This document shows, piece by piece, positions 27,250 through 33,735 of a DNA stretch of 33,735 nt. Positions within the stretch are counted from its first letter, which is position 1. Every line of letters starts with the position of its first letter. A model generated the notes under the pieces. It was not told where the DNA came from and did not search any database. It saw only the letters and a program-made list of their open reading frames with translations. The position numbers and the translations under genes were made by a program. The DNA lies in the NCBI GenBank assembly GCA_014860455.1, contig JACZJQ010000142.1, positions 1-33,735 of the forward strand. Reading direction: 5' to 3'. The stretch comes from Bryobacteraceae bacterium. Its GTDB lineage: Bacteria; Acidobacteriota; Terriglobia; Bryobacterales; Bryobacteraceae.

Positions 27250-29994
27250 ATGCGCAGTGCTGTTGTCGCCCTCGTTCTGCTGGCGTTGCCGGCGTTCTCT
27301 CAGAAATTTGAATTCTGGCCCGGGGCTCAATACGATCCGGCCATCCCTAGCCCGGAAAAGGTCCTCGGTTACCCGACGGGGCAGAAGCACGCCACCCAAG
27401 CCGACATCTTGCGCTACTTTGAAGCGCTGGCCGCCGCCGCGCCGTCTCGCATCAAGGTGGTCGAGTATGCAAGCTCGTGGGAAGGCCGAATGCTGATCTA
27501 CGCCGTCATCGGTTCTGAATCCAACATTGCCCGCATCGGCCAGATCAAGGCAGGCGTCAAGCAGTTGACCGAACCGGGCAAGACCAACGAAGCCGCCGCC
27601 GCCAAACTGGTCTCTTCGCTGCCGGCCGTTATCGGCATCTCTGGCGCAGTTCACGGCAACGAGATATCCTCGCCCGAAGCGGCCATGCTCACCGCTTACC
27701 ACCTGCTGGCGGCCCGCAACGACGCACTGACCACGGCAGTCAGGCAAAACGTCGTGCTGCTGCTCGACCCGCTGCAGAATCCCGACGGCCGTGACCGTTT
27801 CGTCCACAACTACCGCACTGCGGCCGGTCTGGAACCCGATCCCAACGCCGCCTCCGCCGAGCGCGCCGAGCCCTGGCCCGGCGGCCGCTCGAACCACTAT
27901 CTGTTCGACATGAACCGTGACTGGTTCGCTCTCACGCAACCCGAGACCCGCGGCCGCATCGCTTACCTGAAGGAGTGGATGCCGCTCGTCTTCGTCGACC
28001 TGCATGAGATGGGGACCGACTCGACCTACTTCTTCGCGCCCGGCGCCGAGCCCTACAACCCGCACCTGACCAAGGAACAGAAGGACCTCGGCCCCCTGTT
28101 CGGCAAGAACAACGCCAAGTGGTTTGACCAGTTCGGCTATGTCTACTTCACGCGCGAGGTGTTCGACGAGTTCTATCCCGGCTACGGCGCTTCGTGGCCC
28201 TGGTATTACGGCGGCATGGGCATGACGTATGAGAACGCCTCGGTGCGCGGCCTCATCGCCCGCAAGTCCGACGAGACCCTCTACACGTTCGAGGAGAGCG
28301 TGAAGAAGCAGTTCATCGCCTCGGTCGCCACCTGCGAAACGGCGGCGTCGAACCGGGAAATACTGTTGAAGAACTTCTGGTCGTATTCGAAGTCGGCGAT
28401 CGAGGAGGGCCGCAAGGAGGCGGTGAAGGAGTACATCCTGCCCCGCCGCGGCGACACCTCGGCAGTCGACAAACTGGCCTACCTGTTGGCCGAACAGGGC
28501 ATCGAGGTCCGCCGCGCGCCGGCCGCGTTTTCGAACGGCGGAAAGCAGTATCCGGCGGGCAGTTACCTGATCTCCTCCGCCCAGCATCGCAAGAGGATGG
28601 TCCGAACGCTGCTGGATCCGGTCAGCGAGATGGACCCCGCTTTCCTCAAGGAGCAGGAACGGAGGCGGAAGAAGAACCTGCGCGACGAGATCTACGACGT
28701 CACCGCATGGTCTCTGCCGATGCTCTACAACGTCGAATGTGTCCACGCGTCGGAAGCGACCGCCGGCAACTTCGAAACCATCACCGGGACCTATCAGCCC
28801 AAAGGCGCCGCCCCGGCTCGCGCCACGGTAGCCTACCTGGTGCCCTGGGGATTCCAGGCTTCGGGCCGTTTCCTGGCCGCCGCCCTACGAGCCGACCTGC
28901 GGGTGACCTCCGCCGGCAAGCCTTTTGCGCAAAACGGGCGCAAGTACCCGGCCGGCACGCTGGTGGTCGGCGTCAAACAGAATGACTCCTCGGTTCACGA
29001 CAAAGTCGCCCGCATCGCAGTGGCCAGCGGCGCCGAGGTGATTCCGGCCAATTCGAGCTGGGTGGACGAGGGCATCGACTTCGGTTCCAACAACGCCCAG
29101 TTCCTGCGCAAGCCAGGGATCGCCATGCTCTGGGATACGCCGGCCTCTTCGCTCGCCGCCGGGGCTACGAGATACGTCATCGAGCGTATGTACGGCTACC
29201 CGGTCACCGCCATACGGCCGCAGGCTCTCGCCATGGCCGACCTGTCGAAGTTCCAGGTCCTGATCCTGCCCGACAGCATGGGCAACTACGGTTCCGCGCT
29301 TGGCGCCTCCACTGAACGGATCAAAACCTGGGTGCGTTCAGGCGGAACGCTGATTGGCATCGGAGGCGCACTTTCGTACCTCTCCAGCGGCCAGGTGGGT
29401 CTTCTCGGCCTACAGCAGGAAGCCCTTGCCGCCGCAACTGCAGCCCCCGCCGGACGGCCAGCGGATTCAGCCAAGCCCGCCGATGCCGCCAAGCCTGGCG
29501 CAGGCGCGCCTGGGCCACCGTCCGCCGCCGCAGCCGCGGGTCCGGTGCCAGGGAAGATCCTCACCAGCGAGGATGACTTCCGCAAGGCCATCCAGGGCGA
29601 CCGCGAAATGCCCGATGCCGTCGCCGGAGTGCTGCTTCGCGCCAAACCCGATCATGAGCACTGGATCGGCCATGGCCTGCCGGAGACCATTCATGTCCTG
29701 TACAACGGCCGGACGATCTACGCGCCGTTGAAGAAGGACAAGGGCGTCAACCCGGTCATCTTCGCCGGTCCGGACCAGATTCTCGCCGCCGGCGTGCTCT
29801 GGGAAGAGAACCGGAAGCAACTCGCCTACAAACCATTTATCGTCGTCCAGGGCGAAGGCAGAGGCACGGTGATCGGTTTCACGGCCGATCCCAACTTCCG
29901 CGCCTACATGGACGGGCTGAACATCGCCTTCCTCAACGCCGTGTTCCGCAGCCCGCTGGGCGGCGGCGGGCGGGGGCAGATGGCGGAGGAGTAA
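27250..29994 (+). CDS. large secreted M14-family zinc carboxypeptidase with C-terminal GATase-like domain
   Basis: 914 residues from the ATG at 27250. The signal peptide is MRSAVVALVLLALPAFSQ. The peptidase domain covers about 40-345: zinc ligands H135 and E138 in VHGNEISSPEAAM and H252 in VFVDLHEMGTDSTYF, the substrate-binding FDMNRDWFALTQPET, and a catalytic glutamate E328 in GMTYENASVRG. The second half has a region resembling a class I glutamine amidotransferase fold (RYVIERMYGYPVTAIRPQAL to VRSGGTLIGIGGALSYLSS), broken by an Ala/Pro/Lys-rich linker of about 45 residues near 720-765. This architecture is typical of large Acidobacteria/Bacteroidota M14 proteins. It probably trims peptides outside the cell. 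It ends at a bidirectional terminator. Confidence 0.9.
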   Translation: MRSAVVALVLLALPAFSQKFEFWPGAQYDPAIPSPEKVLGYPTGQKHATQADILRYFEALAAAAPSRIKVVEYASSWEGRMLIYAVIGSESNIARIGQIKAGVKQLTEPGKTNEAAAAKLVSSLPAVIGISGAVHGNEISSPEAAMLTAYHLLAARNDALTTAVRQNVVLLLDPLQNPDGRDRFVHNYRTAAGLEPDPNAASAERAEPWPGGRSNHYLFDMNRDWFALTQPETRGRIAYLKEWMPLVFVDLHEMGTDSTYFFAPGAEPYNPHLTKEQKDLGPLFGKNNAKWFDQFGYVYFTREVFDEFYPGYGASWPWYYGGMGMTYENASVRGLIARKSDETLYTFEESVKKQFIASVATCETAASNREILLKNFWSYSKSAIEEGRKEAVKEYILPRRGDTSAVDKLAYLLAEQGIEVRRAPAAFSNGGKQYPAGSYLISSAQHRKRMVRTLLDPVSEMDPAFLKEQERRRKKNLRDEIYDVTAWSLPMLYNVECVHASEATAGNFETITGTYQPKGAAPARATVAYLVPWGFQASGRFLAAALRADLRVTSAGKPFAQNGRKYPAGTLVVGVKQNDSSVHDKVARIAVASGAEVIPANSSWVDEGIDFGSNNAQFLRKPGIAMLWDTPASSLAAGATRYVIERMYGYPVTAIRPQALAMADLSKFQVLILPDSMGNYGSALGASTERIKTWVRSGGTLIGIGGALSYLSSGQVGLLGLQQEALAAATAAPAGRPADSAKPADAAKPGAGAPGPPSAAAAAGPVPGKILTSEDDFRKAIQGDREMPDAVAGVLLRAKPDHEHWIGHGLPETIHVLYNGRTIYAPLKKDKGVNPVIFAGPDQILAAGVLWEENRKQLAYKPFIVVQGEGRGTVIGFTADPNFRAYMDGLNIAFLNAVFRSPLGGGGRGQMAEE

Positions 29995-30041
29995 TCCGGC
30001 TGGCTGGTTCCTGCGACCAAACGAACTCCGCGTAAAACGCC

Positions 30042-30077
30042 ACTCGCCGCCTCTTTCGGGGCGGCGAGTTCGTTTTG
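30042..30077. terminator. bidirectional Rho-independent terminator
   Basis: A perfect 10-bp GC-rich stem (30042-30051 with 30060-30069) closes an 8-base loop. On the + strand TCGTTTT follows; on the - strand GGCGTTTT follows, so it can serve both the M14 gene and the convergent TlpA-like gene. An alternative 10-bp pairing (30019-30028 with 30066-30075) shares four bases of the right arm. Confidence 0.85.
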
Positions 30078-30107
30078 TAAGAGCTGATTCTACTGAAAAT
30101 AAATGAC

Positions 30108-30575
30108 TTAGAGCAGTTTCAGGACGTCGGCTTCAAGCTGTTTCAGGTCCACCTCGCCGAAGTAGGACTTCAACTTCCGGCCTTGCCTGTCATAGAGGAA
30201 CGTCGCAGGCAGGGCGCCAGACCATTTCGGGTCCAGCGAGTTGATGAACTTGTCGTCGTCCTTGGCGCGCTTGATGTAGACAGGCGCCGGGACGCGCGTC
30301 TTGTCCAGGAAGGCGGCGGCGTCTTTTTCCTGCTCGATCTCGTCGGCCGAGACCGTAATCAACTGAAATCCTTTGGCCGAGAGCCTCTGGTGCATCGACA
30401 CCAAGGCCGGCATCTCCTTGCGGCAGGGGACGCAGTAGGTGGCCCAGAAGTTGACCAGGACGACCTTGCCCTTCGACGCCGCGACCATTTTCGGATAGGT
30501 GGCCTCGCTTACCGGTTTCAGGTCGGCGGCGAACATCGTGCCCGCCGCCAGGATCAGAACTGCGAGAGTTTTCAC
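30108..30575 (-). CDS. TlpA/ResA-like thiol-disulfide oxidoreductase
   Basis: 155 residues from a GTG at 30573-30575 that overlaps the redoxin stop (GTGA). A signal peptide (MKTLAVLILAAGTMFA) precedes a thioredoxin fold: VVLVNFWATYCVPCRKEMPA with the redox pair C48/C51, LITVSADE, ALPATFLYDRQGRKL with the cis-proline, and a closing helix. The TlpA/ResA/DsbE group reduces disulfides in the periplasm, for example in cytochrome c maturation or in rescuing oxidised thiols. No cytochrome genes are near. It is the last gene of a five-gene leftward operon, next to a second thioredoxin-fold protein. Confidence 0.9.
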   Translation of the reverse strand: MKTLAVLILAAGTMFAADLKPVSEATYPKMVAASKGKVVLVNFWATYCVPCRKEMPALVSMHQRLSAKGFQLITVSADEIEQEKDAAAFLDKTRVPAPVYIKRAKDDDKFINSLDPKWSGALPATFLYDRQGRKLKSYFGEVDLKQLEADVLKLL

Positions 30576-31126
30576 GACTGTTTCTTGGCCCTCTTGATGG
30601 TACAGCCAAAGGCCTTCGACTCGGCCACCGGAACGGCCTTGCCAGCCAGGATCGCGTCCAGCGCGTCCTTCAGCGGGCGCTTGGTGATGCGCGCGGCGGC
30701 GCGCGAATCGTCGATCGAGCCGTGGTAGGCGATCTTGCCAGCCTTGTCGAAGACCAGCACTTCTGGCGTCACCTGGGCATTGAACCGGTCGGCGACCTTG
30801 TTGTCGAGGTCCTTATGCACGGCGAAAGTGAAGCCGTTGTCCTGGGCGTGTTTCACGACTTCGGCAGCCGGCTCGGTCGAGTTCGAATTCACGAAGACGA
30901 AATCGATACCCTTCGCCATATACTCGCTGTACAGCTCCTTCATGCGGGCGTTGTAGTCGTTCGAAACCGGGCACTGCGTGGCGACGAAGAAGACGGCCGT
31001 GGTCTTGCCTTCCAGTTTCACGGATACGGGCTTGCCGTCGGTCCCGGTGAGGGCCAGCGGTTCGGCGGCCGAGAGGATGGCCGCACAGGCTGCTAGGGCG
31101 AGTACTGCATGCCGGATGGATTTCAT
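30572..31126 (-). CDS. exported redoxin (AhpC/TSA-like thioredoxin-fold) protein
   Basis: 184 residues. The ATG at 31124-31126 overlaps the upstream stop (ATGA) and also has AAGGAG 8 bases before it. A signal peptide (RHAVLALAACAAILSA) leads into a thioredoxin fold with TAVFFVATQCPVSNDYNARM; C52 is in the peroxiredoxin-like position but the motif is CPVS, with one cysteine only. Further on are VFVNSNSTE and VTPEVLVFDKAGKIAYHGSI, and near the end FGCTIKR with C175, which recurs in such redoxin proteins and could be the resolving cysteine. A periplasmic peroxidase or thiol exchange role is likely. It is a likely redox partner of the TlpA-like protein encoded next. Confidence 0.85.
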   Translation of the reverse strand: MKSIRHAVLALAACAAILSAAEPLALTGTDGKPVSVKLEGKTTAVFFVATQCPVSNDYNARMKELYSEYMAKGIDFVFVNSNSTEPAAEVVKHAQDNGFTFAVHKDLDNKVADRFNAQVTPEVLVFDKAGKIAYHGSIDDSRAAARITKRPLKDALDAILAGKAVPVAESKAFGCTIKRAKKQS

Positions 31127-31530
31127 TCGCTGTTCTCCTTGTCCTTTTCCTTGTCTTTGTCTGTTGTCTTTGCCGCGAGCGGCAGGTTGATGACAGCGTC
31201 CAGTCGGGAGTCGAAGACGGTGAGCATGCGCTTGTCGCTGGACAGATCGTTGAAGTCGGCGCGGACTTCATAGTCGATGTTTGAGGACAGGTTATAGAAA
31301 CGGTACTTGCCGTCGGCGGGCGTGATGAAGGAAGTGACCTGGAGAGTCTTTAGATTCTTGATCTTAACAACGGCGCCGCGGGCCGGATTGCCGTCCGGCA
31401 GGGTGACAACGCCTTCGAGGTTGCGGATGTTGGGGTCGCGGCCCTTCTGTTTCTTCTGATTGGTCCACTGGGCCGAAAGCGGCAGAACCAGGCAAACGGA
31501 CAACAAAGCGAAGAAAAGGCGTCGAGCCAT
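31123..31530 (-). CDS. secreted carboxypeptidase-like regulatory domain protein
   Basis: 135 residues from the ATG at 31528-31530, with AGAGGAG 6 bases upstream. A signal peptide (RRLFFALLSVCLVLPLSA) is followed by one beta-sandwich domain of the carboxypeptidase-regulatory type: NLEGVVTLPDGNPARGAVV, then KNLKTLQVTSFITPADGKY, RFYNLSSNIDYEVRADFND. The C-terminus is basic-acidic and likely disordered (TTDKDKEKDKENSE). Such domains act as accessory or binding modules; no catalytic residues are present. It is the third gene of the operon and overlaps the redoxin start by 4 bases. Confidence 0.75.
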   Translation of the reverse strand: MARRLFFALLSVCLVLPLSAQWTNQKKQKGRDPNIRNLEGVVTLPDGNPARGAVVKIKNLKTLQVTSFITPADGKYRFYNLSSNIDYEVRADFNDLSSDKRMLTVFDSRLDAVINLPLAAKTTDKDKEKDKENSE

Positions 31531-31556
31531 ATCGGTCTCCTCTAGTATGGGATGCG

Positions 31557-31949
31557 TCAACGGGCGTACGGTTTCAGTGTAAGGTAAACGTCGATGCGTT
31601 CGCTGGCCGAGATCTCGACTTCGCGCTGCTCGGCGGCGAAGCCTGGAGCCGAGGCCTCGATCCTGTAACGCGCCGAGCCTGCGGGGACGCGGAACGAATA
31701 CTCGCCCCGGATGTCGCTCGTGGTCTTCATCGGTTTGAGCTTCTTCGCGCCGGGTGGAAGCGCAATGGCGGTGAGCGTCAACTCGACGCGCGGGAAGGCA
31801 AAGCCGGGGTCGCGGAATACCGTTCCGGCGATGACTGCCTGCGGTTTGTCCGCCGCCGAGGCGCCCTGAAGCAGTCCCGGCGGGCTGGCGAGAGACGCGG
31901 CGACAACAAGGGCTGACAGCAGGCGGCTAGCGCCAGTCTTCCTCTTCAT
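31557..31949 (-). CDS. secreted carboxypeptidase-like regulatory domain protein
   Basis: 130 residues from the ATG at 31947-31949; upstream ATGs at 31970 and earlier would add an odd Thr/Met/Arg-rich leader that is simply the acid-coding tail of the preceding gene read in another frame. Signal peptide: LLSALVVAASLASPPGLLQG then ASA. The domain has AVIAGTVFRDPGFAFPRVEL, SDIRGEYSFRVPAGSARYRI, EASAPGFAAEQREVEI and a closing IDVYLTLKP, the usual CarboxypepD_reg pattern. Its start lies inside the 3' end of the zinc-ribbon gene (23-base overlap), so its translation should depend on it. Distinct from, but parallel to, the next gene's product. Confidence 0.7.
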   Translation of the reverse strand: MKRKTGASRLLSALVVAASLASPPGLLQGASAADKPQAVIAGTVFRDPGFAFPRVELTLTAIALPPGAKKLKPMKTTSDIRGEYSFRVPAGSARYRIEASAPGFAAEQREVEISASERIDVYLTLKPYAR

Positions 31950-32172
31950 CCGCCTCGTCTTCTTCCTCATCCAGGTCGTCCTCGTCGTCGTCATCATCGA
32001 AGTCGTCGTCATCGTCGAAGCCGTCGGCTTCGTCGGCGGGTTCGAGTTCGATAGGATCGGTTTGGGTCACGATGAACTGGGCGCCACACTCGTCGCACAT
32101 CAGCTCTTCGCCTTCATCGAGTTCGCTTTCTTCCACGTCAATCACGGCGTCGCATTCAGGACAAGTCAGCAT
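31927..32172 (-). CDS. LysW-like zinc-ribbon protein with ultra-acidic tail
   Basis: 81 residues from the ATG at 32170-32172, which has GAGGG 8 bases upstream; a GTG at 32181 is in frame. The first 45 residues form a zinc ribbon with CPEC (4-7) and CDEC (26-29), then FIVTQTDPIELEP, very like LysW/ArgW, the carrier whose C-terminal glutamate holds lysine or arginine intermediates. The remaining 36 residues are almost wholly Asp/Glu with a single Phe, Leu and few Ala. LysW ends EDWGE; this ends EEDWR, so the acceptor glutamate is absent at the usual place. No LysX/LysZ genes are near. It may be a metal-binding or scaffold protein derived from the carrier. It heads a tight operon of envelope proteins. 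Confidence 0.8.
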   Translation of the reverse strand: MLTCPECDAVIDVEESELDEGEELMCDECGAQFIVTQTDPIELEPADEADGFDDDDDFDDDDDEDDLDEEEDEADEEEDWR

Positions 32173-32396
32173 GGAGTTCACCCTCGATCATTTGAATACG
32201 GCCAGGAGGCTCAATTCTGGATTGTCGCTGAACAGGCGGCAGGATGCAATGGCGGTTTTTCACCCAAATGAAGTCAGGGGGATGGCGCGAGGCCGGCCCA
32301 CCGGCTGAGTGACGCGGGCAGAGCCGGCCAAGCGGCCCGGCAGCCGCGCGGAATCGCATAGTAGGGCGGCGGAGCCGCATGGTAGCATAGGTACTT

Positions 32397-32503
32397 GTCA
32401 GGCCTCGGGCTCCGTGCAACGGCAGGCCGCAAACCCCGCCAGGTCCGGAAGGAAGCAACGGTAGTGGTTCGAACCGTGTGCCGCGGATCACCCGGGGTCT
32501 GGC
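32397..32503 (+). ncRNA. ffs: signal recognition particle RNA (4.5S type)
   Basis: The universal apical core is present: CAGGTCCGGAAGGAAGCA at 32440-32457, with the GGAA tetraloop (32447-32450) and the asymmetric and symmetric internal loops around it. The ends pair perfectly: 32397-32409 with 32491-32503 form 13 bp including G-U pairs. The 107-nt length fits the small bacterial SRP RNA without an Alu domain. It lies just before dnaX, as in several other bacteria. A weak -10 (TAGCAT, 32383-32388) lies 9 bases before the proposed 5' end. Confidence 0.93.
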
Positions 32504-32522
32504 ATTTTGAAAGGTCCTTCAC

Positions 32523-33735
32523 GTGGCCACAAGCGCTCCCGATCCCACTGCCCAGCCCTACCAGGTCAGCGCCCGCAAGTTCCGGCCACACGAGTTCGCC
32601 GGCATTATCGGCCAGGAACACGTCCGGGCCACGCTCGAAAACGCCATCAAGCAGGGCCGGGTCGCCCACGGCTACATCCTCTCCGGCCAGCGCGGCACCG
32701 GCAAAACCACCATCGCGCGCATCCTGGCCCGCTGCCTGAACTGCGTCGAAGGTCCGACGACGACGCCTTGCGGGGTCTGCTCGTCTTGCATCGAGATCCC
32801 CCAGAACAACGCCCCGGACGTCATCGAGATTGACGCCGCGTCGAACCGCGGCATCAACGAGATGCGCGAACTGCGCGAGAACGTGCGATACCGCCCGTCG
32901 CGCGACCGCTACAAGGTCTTCATCATCGACGAAGCCCACCAGATCACCAACGAGGCCTTCAACGCCTTGCTGAAGACTCTGGAAGAACCGCCCGAGTGGG
33001 CCGTCTTCCTGCTTTGCACCACCGAAGCGCACAAGATCCCGGCGACCATCGCCTCGCGCTGCCAGCAGTTTAGCTTCCGTTCGGTCGACTTCACCCAACT
33101 GGTCAGCCGCATGGAGTGGATCTGCCAGCAGGAGGGCATCGAAGCCGATGCCGAGGCGCTGGCCGTACTGGCCCAGGCCGGTGAGGGCAGCGTCCGTGAC
33201 TCTCTCTCCGCGCTGGACCAGGCCATTGCCTGCTGCGGCAACAAGCTGACCGGCGCCGATGTCCGCGGGCTGTTGGGCATGTTTTCGATCGAGTCGCTCG
33301 GCGCGGTGACCGCCGCTCTGGAAGCCGGATCGACGACTGCCATGTTGGAGATCGTCCAGGAACTGGAAACCACCGGGCGCAACCTGCAGCACTACTGCCG
33401 CGAACTGTCGCGCTACTTCCGCAATCTGCTGGTGGCCAGGATCACCGGCGAGACCACCCGGCTGATCTCGGCCGCCCCGCCCGAACAGGAGCGAATGAGG
33501 GAGACGGCCGCAAAGTTCTCCGAAGAGGATCTGACGCGCTGGCTGCAAATCACCATCGACCTCTATTCACAGATGCAGTACTCGCTCCAGCCGCGGCTGC
33601 ACCTTGAACTGGGCCTGCTGCGCCTGGTCCATGCCGGCCGTTTGCAGCCGATCGAGGAGGTGATCCGCGGCTTAAGCGCCGGATCAGCCACCCTGTCGCA
33701 GGCAGCGCCCGCCGCCCGTCTGTCAGCCCCGAAAC
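32523..33735 (+). CDS. dnaX: DNA polymerase III subunits gamma and tau (3' end outside window)
   Basis: 404 residues to the window edge, from a GTG at 32523 with GAAAGG (32509-32514) 8 bases upstream. Clamp-loader signatures are complete: RKFRPHEFAGIIGQEHV, Walker A GQRGTGKT (55-62), zinc cysteines C71, C74, C83, C86 or C89 (CLNC..PCGVCSSC), VIEIDAASNRGINEMRELRE, Walker B VFIIDEAHQIT, LLKTLEEPPEWAVFLLCTTE, and sensor ASRCQQFSF. The lid follows (GEGSVRDSLSALDQA), then domain III. The protein opens and loads the sliding clamp at the replication fork. The tau-specific part lies beyond the window. No frameshift slippery run is seen in the part shown. Confidence 0.97.
   Translation, partial: MATSAPDPTAQPYQVSARKFRPHEFAGIIGQEHVRATLENAIKQGRVAHGYILSGQRGTGKTTIARILARCLNCVEGPTTTPCGVCSSCIEIPQNNAPDVIEIDAASNRGINEMRELRENVRYRPSRDRYKVFIIDEAHQITNEAFNALLKTLEEPPEWAVFLLCTTEAHKIPATIASRCQQFSFRSVDFTQLVSRMEWICQQEGIEADAEALAVLAQAGEGSVRDSLSALDQAIACCGNKLTGADVRGLLGMFSIESLGAVTAALEAGSTTAMLEIVQELETTGRNLQHYCRELSRYFRNLLVARITGETTRLISAAPPEQERMRETAAKFSEEDLTRWLQITIDLYSQMQYSLQPRLHLELGLLRLVHAGRLQPIEEVIRGLSAGSATLSQAAPAARLSAPK

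Follow-up and report, generated by a model that had tools for sequence, protein, structure and literature searches.

A LysW-like protein, two exported proteins and a redox pair encoded in one acidobacterial operon, and its probable origin in a lysine-carrier operon

An operon of five minus-strand genes was analysed in a 33,735-nucleotide stretch of DNA (the window) from a Bryobacteraceae bacterium (Acidobacteriota; Terriglobia; Bryobacterales; assembly GCA_014860455.1, contig JACZJQ010000142.1). The genes were labelled W (LysW-like), B and C (exported, with a single CarboxypepD_reg domain each), R (redoxin) and T (TlpA-like). From homology, gene orders, the missing end motif of W and the lack of a LysX match, the operon is best explained as a composite, an account that we consider rather probable: W-B-C would be the relic of a lysine-carrier operon with a repurposed carrier, B and C would be exported, and R-T would be an added redox pair. 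In the proposed ancestor, of order lysW-lysX-lysY-B-C-lysZ, LysW would have carried aminoadipate, LysX, LysZ and LysY would have processed it, and two small exported proteins would have been encoded among them. Lysine supply would then have moved to the diaminopimelate route (LysA), with loss of lysX, lysY and lysZ and retention of W with B and C. The tail of W would have lengthened into an Asp/Glu run, and in most proteins of the window's family (f1) its EDWGE end would have been replaced by EDW with no more than a single residue after it. In many f1 genomes an R-T pair would have been attached behind C, T (CxxC) reducing the disulphide of R (C52, C175) as an envelope thiol-redox couple. Five odd small genes would thereby gain a traceable history, with two states at one chromosomal place within family f81, and a test case for the reuse of a carrier protein after loss of its ligase.

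Lysine-carrier operons that hold B and C

Profiles of W and C were searched against a class sample of 151 genomes (C at E 1e-12, W at E 1e-8; weak members are hidden by these thresholds). C was found in 143 of the 151 genomes, and this wide retention, together with that of its companion B, makes the two likely to matter; W was found in 128. Among the matches listed, W preceded C on the same strand within 2.8 kb in 120 of the 122 genomes in which both were placed, at a distance of 1 kb or less in 113 and of 2.6–2.8 kb in 7, and the two were on separate contigs in 2. Seventeen genomes showed C only and six W only among the matches listed, and some of the six may have C, as G380 does.

The seven wide gaps were occupied by genes of the lysine carrier pathway: lysX and lysY were inside the six fetched first, and LysX was also found in the seventh (G402). 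The order lysW-lysX-lysY-B-C-lysZ on one strand was present in 7/7 genomes examined in full (G351, G352, G364, G370, G380, G385 and G398), with a DUF421 gene between C and lysZ in G352. LysX scored above cut-off in 13 of the 151 class genomes (12/12 of family f80 and 1/3 of f81), with W directly upstream of it in all 13 (places compared by eye); weaker LysX matches were obtained in two f76 genomes (158.6 and 153.4 bits vs a cut-off of 275.6). The products scored were above the curated cut-offs: LysW of G398 scored 73.2 bits (cut-off 53.2), and G352 gave 357.4 bits for LysX, 386 for ArgC/LysY (cut-off 233.6) and 434.6 for LysZ, the [LysW]-aminoadipate kinase (cut-off 223). Amino-group carriers of the LysW kind are described in the part of PMC9303977 available, and the accessible text of PMC10433800 names the Glu of EDWGE in LysW as the residue that carries the substrate, and GSWGR as the sequence through which the motif is recognised by LysX-type ligases. 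LysW of the lysX-bearing genomes ended in EDWGE in 6/6 proteins read, and GSWGR was present in all six LysX proteins read. LysA above cut-off was absent from 4 of 7 f80 genomes tested, which is consistent with lysine being made through LysW there. The name lysW has also been applied to an unrelated transporter, as given in the portion of PMC5584792 seen.

Both states were found within f81. Of its three genomes, G352 carried lysX, lysY and lysZ, and G359 and G365 lacked them and had W-B-C only. The flanks matched, with genes for an OPT transporter, an M20 peptidase and DUF421 at one end and for PheA and an AI2E transporter at the other (names read from sequence, except the prephenate dehydratase and the M20/dipeptidase family, which were scored). 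W of G359 still scored 55.8 bits, above the LysW cut-off (start residue assumed), and W of G359 and G365 ended in EEWEG. We infer that f81 differs by loss of lysX, lysY and lysZ, the more economical direction, since gain would need two insertions rebuilding the lysW-X-Y-Z order and W regaining EDWGE. B and C persist with or without the pathway, which points to a separate envelope function for the two proteins.

The acidic carrier-like protein and its exported companions

The window W scored 33.6 bits against the curated LysW equivalog TIGR01206, below the cut-off of 53.2, and was also above the general MJ0042-type zinc-finger cut-off (28.2 vs 20.9). A W profile run against PDB matched LysW chains only (3/3 at E 0.01), and the four-Cys ribbon pattern was shared by 92 of the 93 W proteins of the family. 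The window protein ends in EDWR, without the terminal Glu of EDWGE, and a WGE end was found in 0/93. Trp was the last or next-to-last residue in 87/93, followed by K, R or H in 67/93. This pattern was seen in 51/57 proteins where B follows and in 36/36 where B is absent, so the overlap of W with B is not its cause. After residue 45 the family proteins had a median of 31 residues, 78% of them Asp/Glu, and the family median net charge was -37. With the EDWGE end changed, W probably cannot be loaded as a lysine carrier.

The best LysX match in the window genome reached 46.9 bits against the cut-off of 275.6 (assembly 95% complete, so that a gene could, with low probability, have been missed). No LysX, LysY or LysZ match was obtained at E 1e-10 at 118 loci (L034–L151), and the window operon consists of its five genes only. 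LysA (500.5 bits) and ArgJ (381 bits, above cut-off) are present in the window genome, and a carrier is thus not needed for making lysine and arginine. W as a working LysW of this genome was rejected on its score, its end motif and the lack of a LysX match; with the terminal Glu missing, no LysX found and LysA present, the window W has probably lost the part of lysine carrier.

LarE activates a carboxylate and inserts sulphur. That W continues to be loaded as a carrier, with some other enzyme than LysX to activate it (elsewhere in the phylum possibly LarE), is the least probable of the alternatives considered and seems improbable to us. In a phylum sample of 247 genomes (C at E 1e-10, W at E 1e-6, weak members again being hidden), W was found outside f1 and f2 in 62 of 220 genomes. 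In at least 19 of these 62, larE followed W on the same strand at a distance of 9–173 bases, and in at least 4 more it was within 1.1 kb; clusters of loci picked among the best W matches were left out of this count. Several W proteins outside f1 and f2 end in WDE, WEE, WED or WNE, near the LysW end. Set against this, for 43 of the 62 the matches listed put no LarE at 250 bases or less from W (LarE placed for at least 52 of the 62), the LarE of the window genome is on another contig (C19), and the window W ends in Arg. Outside the class, W could be a LarE substrate. The W proteins at the larE-neighbouring loci outside the class (L152, L153, L154, L157, L158, L159, L161, L163 and others) were mostly acidic-tailed, and LarE reached 319.6 bits with TIGR00268 in the one scored. 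In the part of PMC8305020 available, LarE is named and LysW papers are cited, with no link drawn between them.

B and C were basic after residue 25, with an isoelectric point above 8 in 91% of 58 B and 94% of 97 C proteins. A hydrophobic N-terminal stretch was found in 54/58 B and 86/99 C proteins by a simple hydropathy test rather than a signal-peptide program, and an export-type N-terminus was likewise borne out for all four products for which the earlier note had claimed one. We propose that W now serves B and C; the favoured form of this role, though by itself unlikely, is that of an acidic partner in the cytosol for the basic precursors of B and C synthesised next to it. Somewhat less doubtful, and put forward tentatively, is the broader statement that, in one large class of soil bacteria, a poly-acidic-tailed protein of LysW descent outlived its pathway, took on a new cellular role and may now be the cytosolic partner of two exported proteins from the same ancestral operon.

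CarboxypepD_reg is a beta-sandwich domain. C of f76 and f80 extends into an alpha/beta-hydrolase-like domain (by Pfam for one f76 protein, by eye for the rest). At L179, L181, L185, L186 and L187 the G-x-S-x-G position of C reads GTGLG, GSGLG or GYDVG, so that the usual Ser seems absent (by reading). Outside f1 and f2 only two weak C matches were obtained in the phylum sample, both within long frames. A single-sequence AlphaFold model of C had a mean predicted local distance difference test score of 43 and a predicted template modelling score of 0.21, and was not used.

The W-(B)-C core and the R-T pair

The f1 sample comprised 101 genomes, of which 96 had a C match. The best C locus of 95 genomes, the window and one second locus were scored (97 loci in 96 genomes), and the hidden Markov models for scoring f1 loci, f2 loci, R-T and lys-type loci were derived from f1 members themselves. 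Whole-genome searches covered Acidobacteriota and, beyond that phylum, 14 genomes included as controls in the family searches. W was upstream of C at 93/97 f1 loci. The full W-B-C-R-T order was found at 36/97 (2 near a contig end), W-C at 29 (2 near a contig end), W-B-C at 13 (1 near a contig end), W-B-C-T at 5, W-C-R-T at 4 (2 near a contig end) and W-B-C-R at 3 (1 near a contig end); there were also three one-off patterns containing W and C, 3 loci with C alone and 1 with B-C-R-T at a contig end. The order described in the earlier note is thus not unique to the window genome; uniqueness would have counted against that note's reading. A near relative, L033, is from Candidatus Solibacter (NCBI: Bryobacterales, Terriglobia, Acidobacteriota) and has a C 96% identical. 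The core was present without R or T at 42/97 loci, and no R or T match was obtained in 20 fetched f2 loci (19 genomes). From these counts the core is W-(B)-C and R-T is a patchy addition. On a W+C tree of 86 loci, the number of state changes was 16 for R (shuffled mean 29.0), 9 for T (28.9) and 6 for B (26.9).

It is also unlikely, at about the level of the partner role suggested for W, that W, B and C are unrelated housekeeping neighbours, adjacent by common descent with no joint function. Such co-location would fit the two class genomes with W and C on separate contigs and the 17 with C and no W at the thresholds used. However, the commonest same-strand neighbour cluster beyond the operon's own genes was present at only 32/97 loci (simple linkage, which can split families), as against 93 for W before C, and across the class the pair is kept within 1 kb in 113 of 122 genomes.

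R aligned to PDB 2ywi over residues 20-178 (E 3.5e-22) with C52 and C175 aligned. C52 was conserved in 46/46 R proteins and C175 in 42/46 (4 gaps); in T, C48 was conserved in 58/58 proteins and C51 in 57/58, and a hydrophobic N-terminal stretch was found in 48/58 (simple hydropathy). The peroxiredoxin catalytic motif is P-x-x-x-T/S-x-x-C, with Pro at -7 and Thr/Ser at -3 of the Cys. R has VFFVATQ before C52, with Val at -7 and Ala at -3, and was not accepted as a peroxiredoxin. In the part of PMC3514251 available, cyanobacterial peroxiredoxin-like (PRX-like) proteins are described that lack the other peroxiredoxin triad residues at the CXXC site, and in PRX-like1 members the triad is predicted in the C-terminal part; on our own reading, R may belong to a PRX-like subfamily.

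R was directly behind C at 44 of the 48 R matches of at least 122 bits in the family sample, and the other 4 were elsewhere. T followed R in 4/4 of the R genes away from W and C. R-T is therefore a unit able to stand alone that strongly prefers the place behind C. In f76 a TlpA/ResA-like gene was upstream of C in 4/4 fetched loci, immediately before it in 3 and separated from it by B in 1, which places a thioredoxin beside C in two lineages. We propose that T reduces R, and C or what surrounds it may be what the pair acts for. The earlier note had offered, as a working idea, a periplasmic thiol or peroxide defence with structural accessory domains; in a form extended by us, B and C would be the accessories and W a cytosolic sensor. 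The place of R behind C and the thioredoxin beside C in f76 speak for this idea. The joining of all five genes in one defence has partial support only and is judged quite unlikely: the core occurs without R or T in f1, neither was matched at the f2 loci, R lacks the peroxiredoxin motif, and R-T is apart from W and C at 4 loci.

Several points weigh against descent from a lysine-carrier operon as proposed above. Gain of lysX, lysY and lysZ around B-C is the less economical but formally allowed direction, and in G405, of f80, W and LysX are present with no C match at E 1e-12. ArgJ is present along with lysWXY in most f80 and f81 genomes, and LysA in the remaining 3 of the 7 f80 genomes tested and in G352, which makes the change of pathway less than clean. 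W outside the class is often acidic-tailed too, and the acidic form may predate the class. R switches state at least 16 times, on a W+C tree that is unrooted and weakly supported, and the charge of W is only weakly related to that of B+C (rho -0.27, without correction for relatedness).

A lysA-like gene was convergent behind the operon at 14/97 loci (L035, L036, L038, L039, L042, L045, L049, L074, L076, L077, L091, L093, L118 and L119), which may be one inherited event; that of L036 (G099) was scored as LysA by TIGR01048. At the f2 loci (L132–L151, picked among the best W matches), a divergent gene for a rhomboid-like membrane protein was near W or C in 19/20, with a Rhomboid score of 42.5 bits for the one scored. 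Second C-like loci were found in G007, G008, G279, G301 and G324; two second copies (L130 and L131), outside the 97 scored loci, were inspected and gave no W match beside the extra C-like gene. A scan of genome contigs for C with patterns from one sequence returned one locus and was not counted as evidence of rarity. In plasmids C gave no match, and R matched 107 records, all below 60% identity.

Operon layout and comparison with known systems

The five reading frames and the junctions described in the earlier note were all present (Table 1). W and B overlap, the B/C junction is a 26-base gap, C/R is an ATGA overlap (31126-31123) and R/T a GTGA overlap (30575-30572). The start of W was set at 32172, not at the GTG at 32181, by comparison with homologues. 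Similar junctions were found in relatives, with a W/B overlap in 48/57 and a 4-base R/T overlap in 29/41 (start codons by a simple rule); this recurrence makes the operon more than chance and agrees with the tight coupling claimed earlier. A search for sigma-70-like promoters in 28500-33735 found 0 against 0.9 expected by chance, which is weak evidence either way. An acidobacterial omics study (PMC7074687), looked through for expression data, offered nothing of use. Domain searches agreed with the earlier naming of the products as a LysW-like acidic protein, two regulatory-domain proteins, a redoxin and a TlpA-like thioredoxin: W matched PF21344 at 40.1 bits (cut-off 27), B and C matched PF13620 at 34.1 and 35.4 bits (cut-off 32.3), R matched Redoxin at 58.3 bits (cut-off 26.6) and T matched AhpC-TSA at 59.2 bits.

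Table 1. Features of the operon and its surroundings (positions in the window)
Feature	Position	Strand	Details
T, TlpA/ResA-like thioredoxin	30108..30575	-	C48-V-P-C51
R, redoxin of 2ywi/2cvb type	30572..31126	-	C52 (CPVS), C175 (GCTIKR)
C, CarboxypepD_reg protein, export-type N-terminus	31123..31530	-	135 residues
B, CarboxypepD_reg protein, export-type N-terminus	31557..31949	-	130 residues
Bases shared by the end of W and the start of B	31927..31949	-	23 bases
W, LysW-like zinc ribbon	31927..32172	-	81 residues; CxxC...CxxC; poly-acidic tail, end EEEDWR; net charge -41
Candidate shared terminator, 12-pair hairpin	30042..30069		Consensus scan only; between the operon and a convergent gene at 27250-29994
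Bacterial small signal recognition particle RNA	32403..32500	+	72.9 bits; neighbour outside the operon, divergent; followed by dnaX from 32523

No description of the W-B-C-R-T arrangement was found in search listings of open-licence texts, and the operon was compared with four known systems. With the LysW operon (lysW-lysX-lysY-lysZ, the alpha-aminoadipate route to lysine) it shares the LysW zinc ribbon and the EDW end of W, and f80 and f81 genomes hold that operon complete with B and C inside; unlike it, the window has no adjacent lysX, lysY or lysZ, and its W, which carries a long acidic tail, lacks the terminal Glu and scores below cut-off. R resembles the PRX-like structures PDB 2ywi, 2cvb and 3u5r in its alignment (20-178 for 2ywi, or 43-178), in both Cys residues and in a C-terminal GC.IK, but differs in its export-type N-terminus and TlpA-like neighbour; no established function can be read from the names of these PDB entries. 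T has the W-A-T-x-C-x-P-C of TlpA/ResA oxidoreductases and TlpA 1jfu as its best PDB match, but is below the NCBIfam cut-offs for both (TlpA 82.7 vs 230, ResA 65.2 vs 170). The CarboxypepD_reg Pfam domain (PF13620) of B and C is, in the part of PMC6434023 available, the N-terminal extension of Oar-type TonB-dependent transporters, and weak matches of C fall within frames of about 800–1300 residues, whereas B and C are stand-alone proteins with no plug or barrel behind the domain. The basic start of B is encoded out of frame by the DNA of the acidic tail of W, with a mean of 4.2 Lys/Arg in residues 2-12 across 58 proteins.

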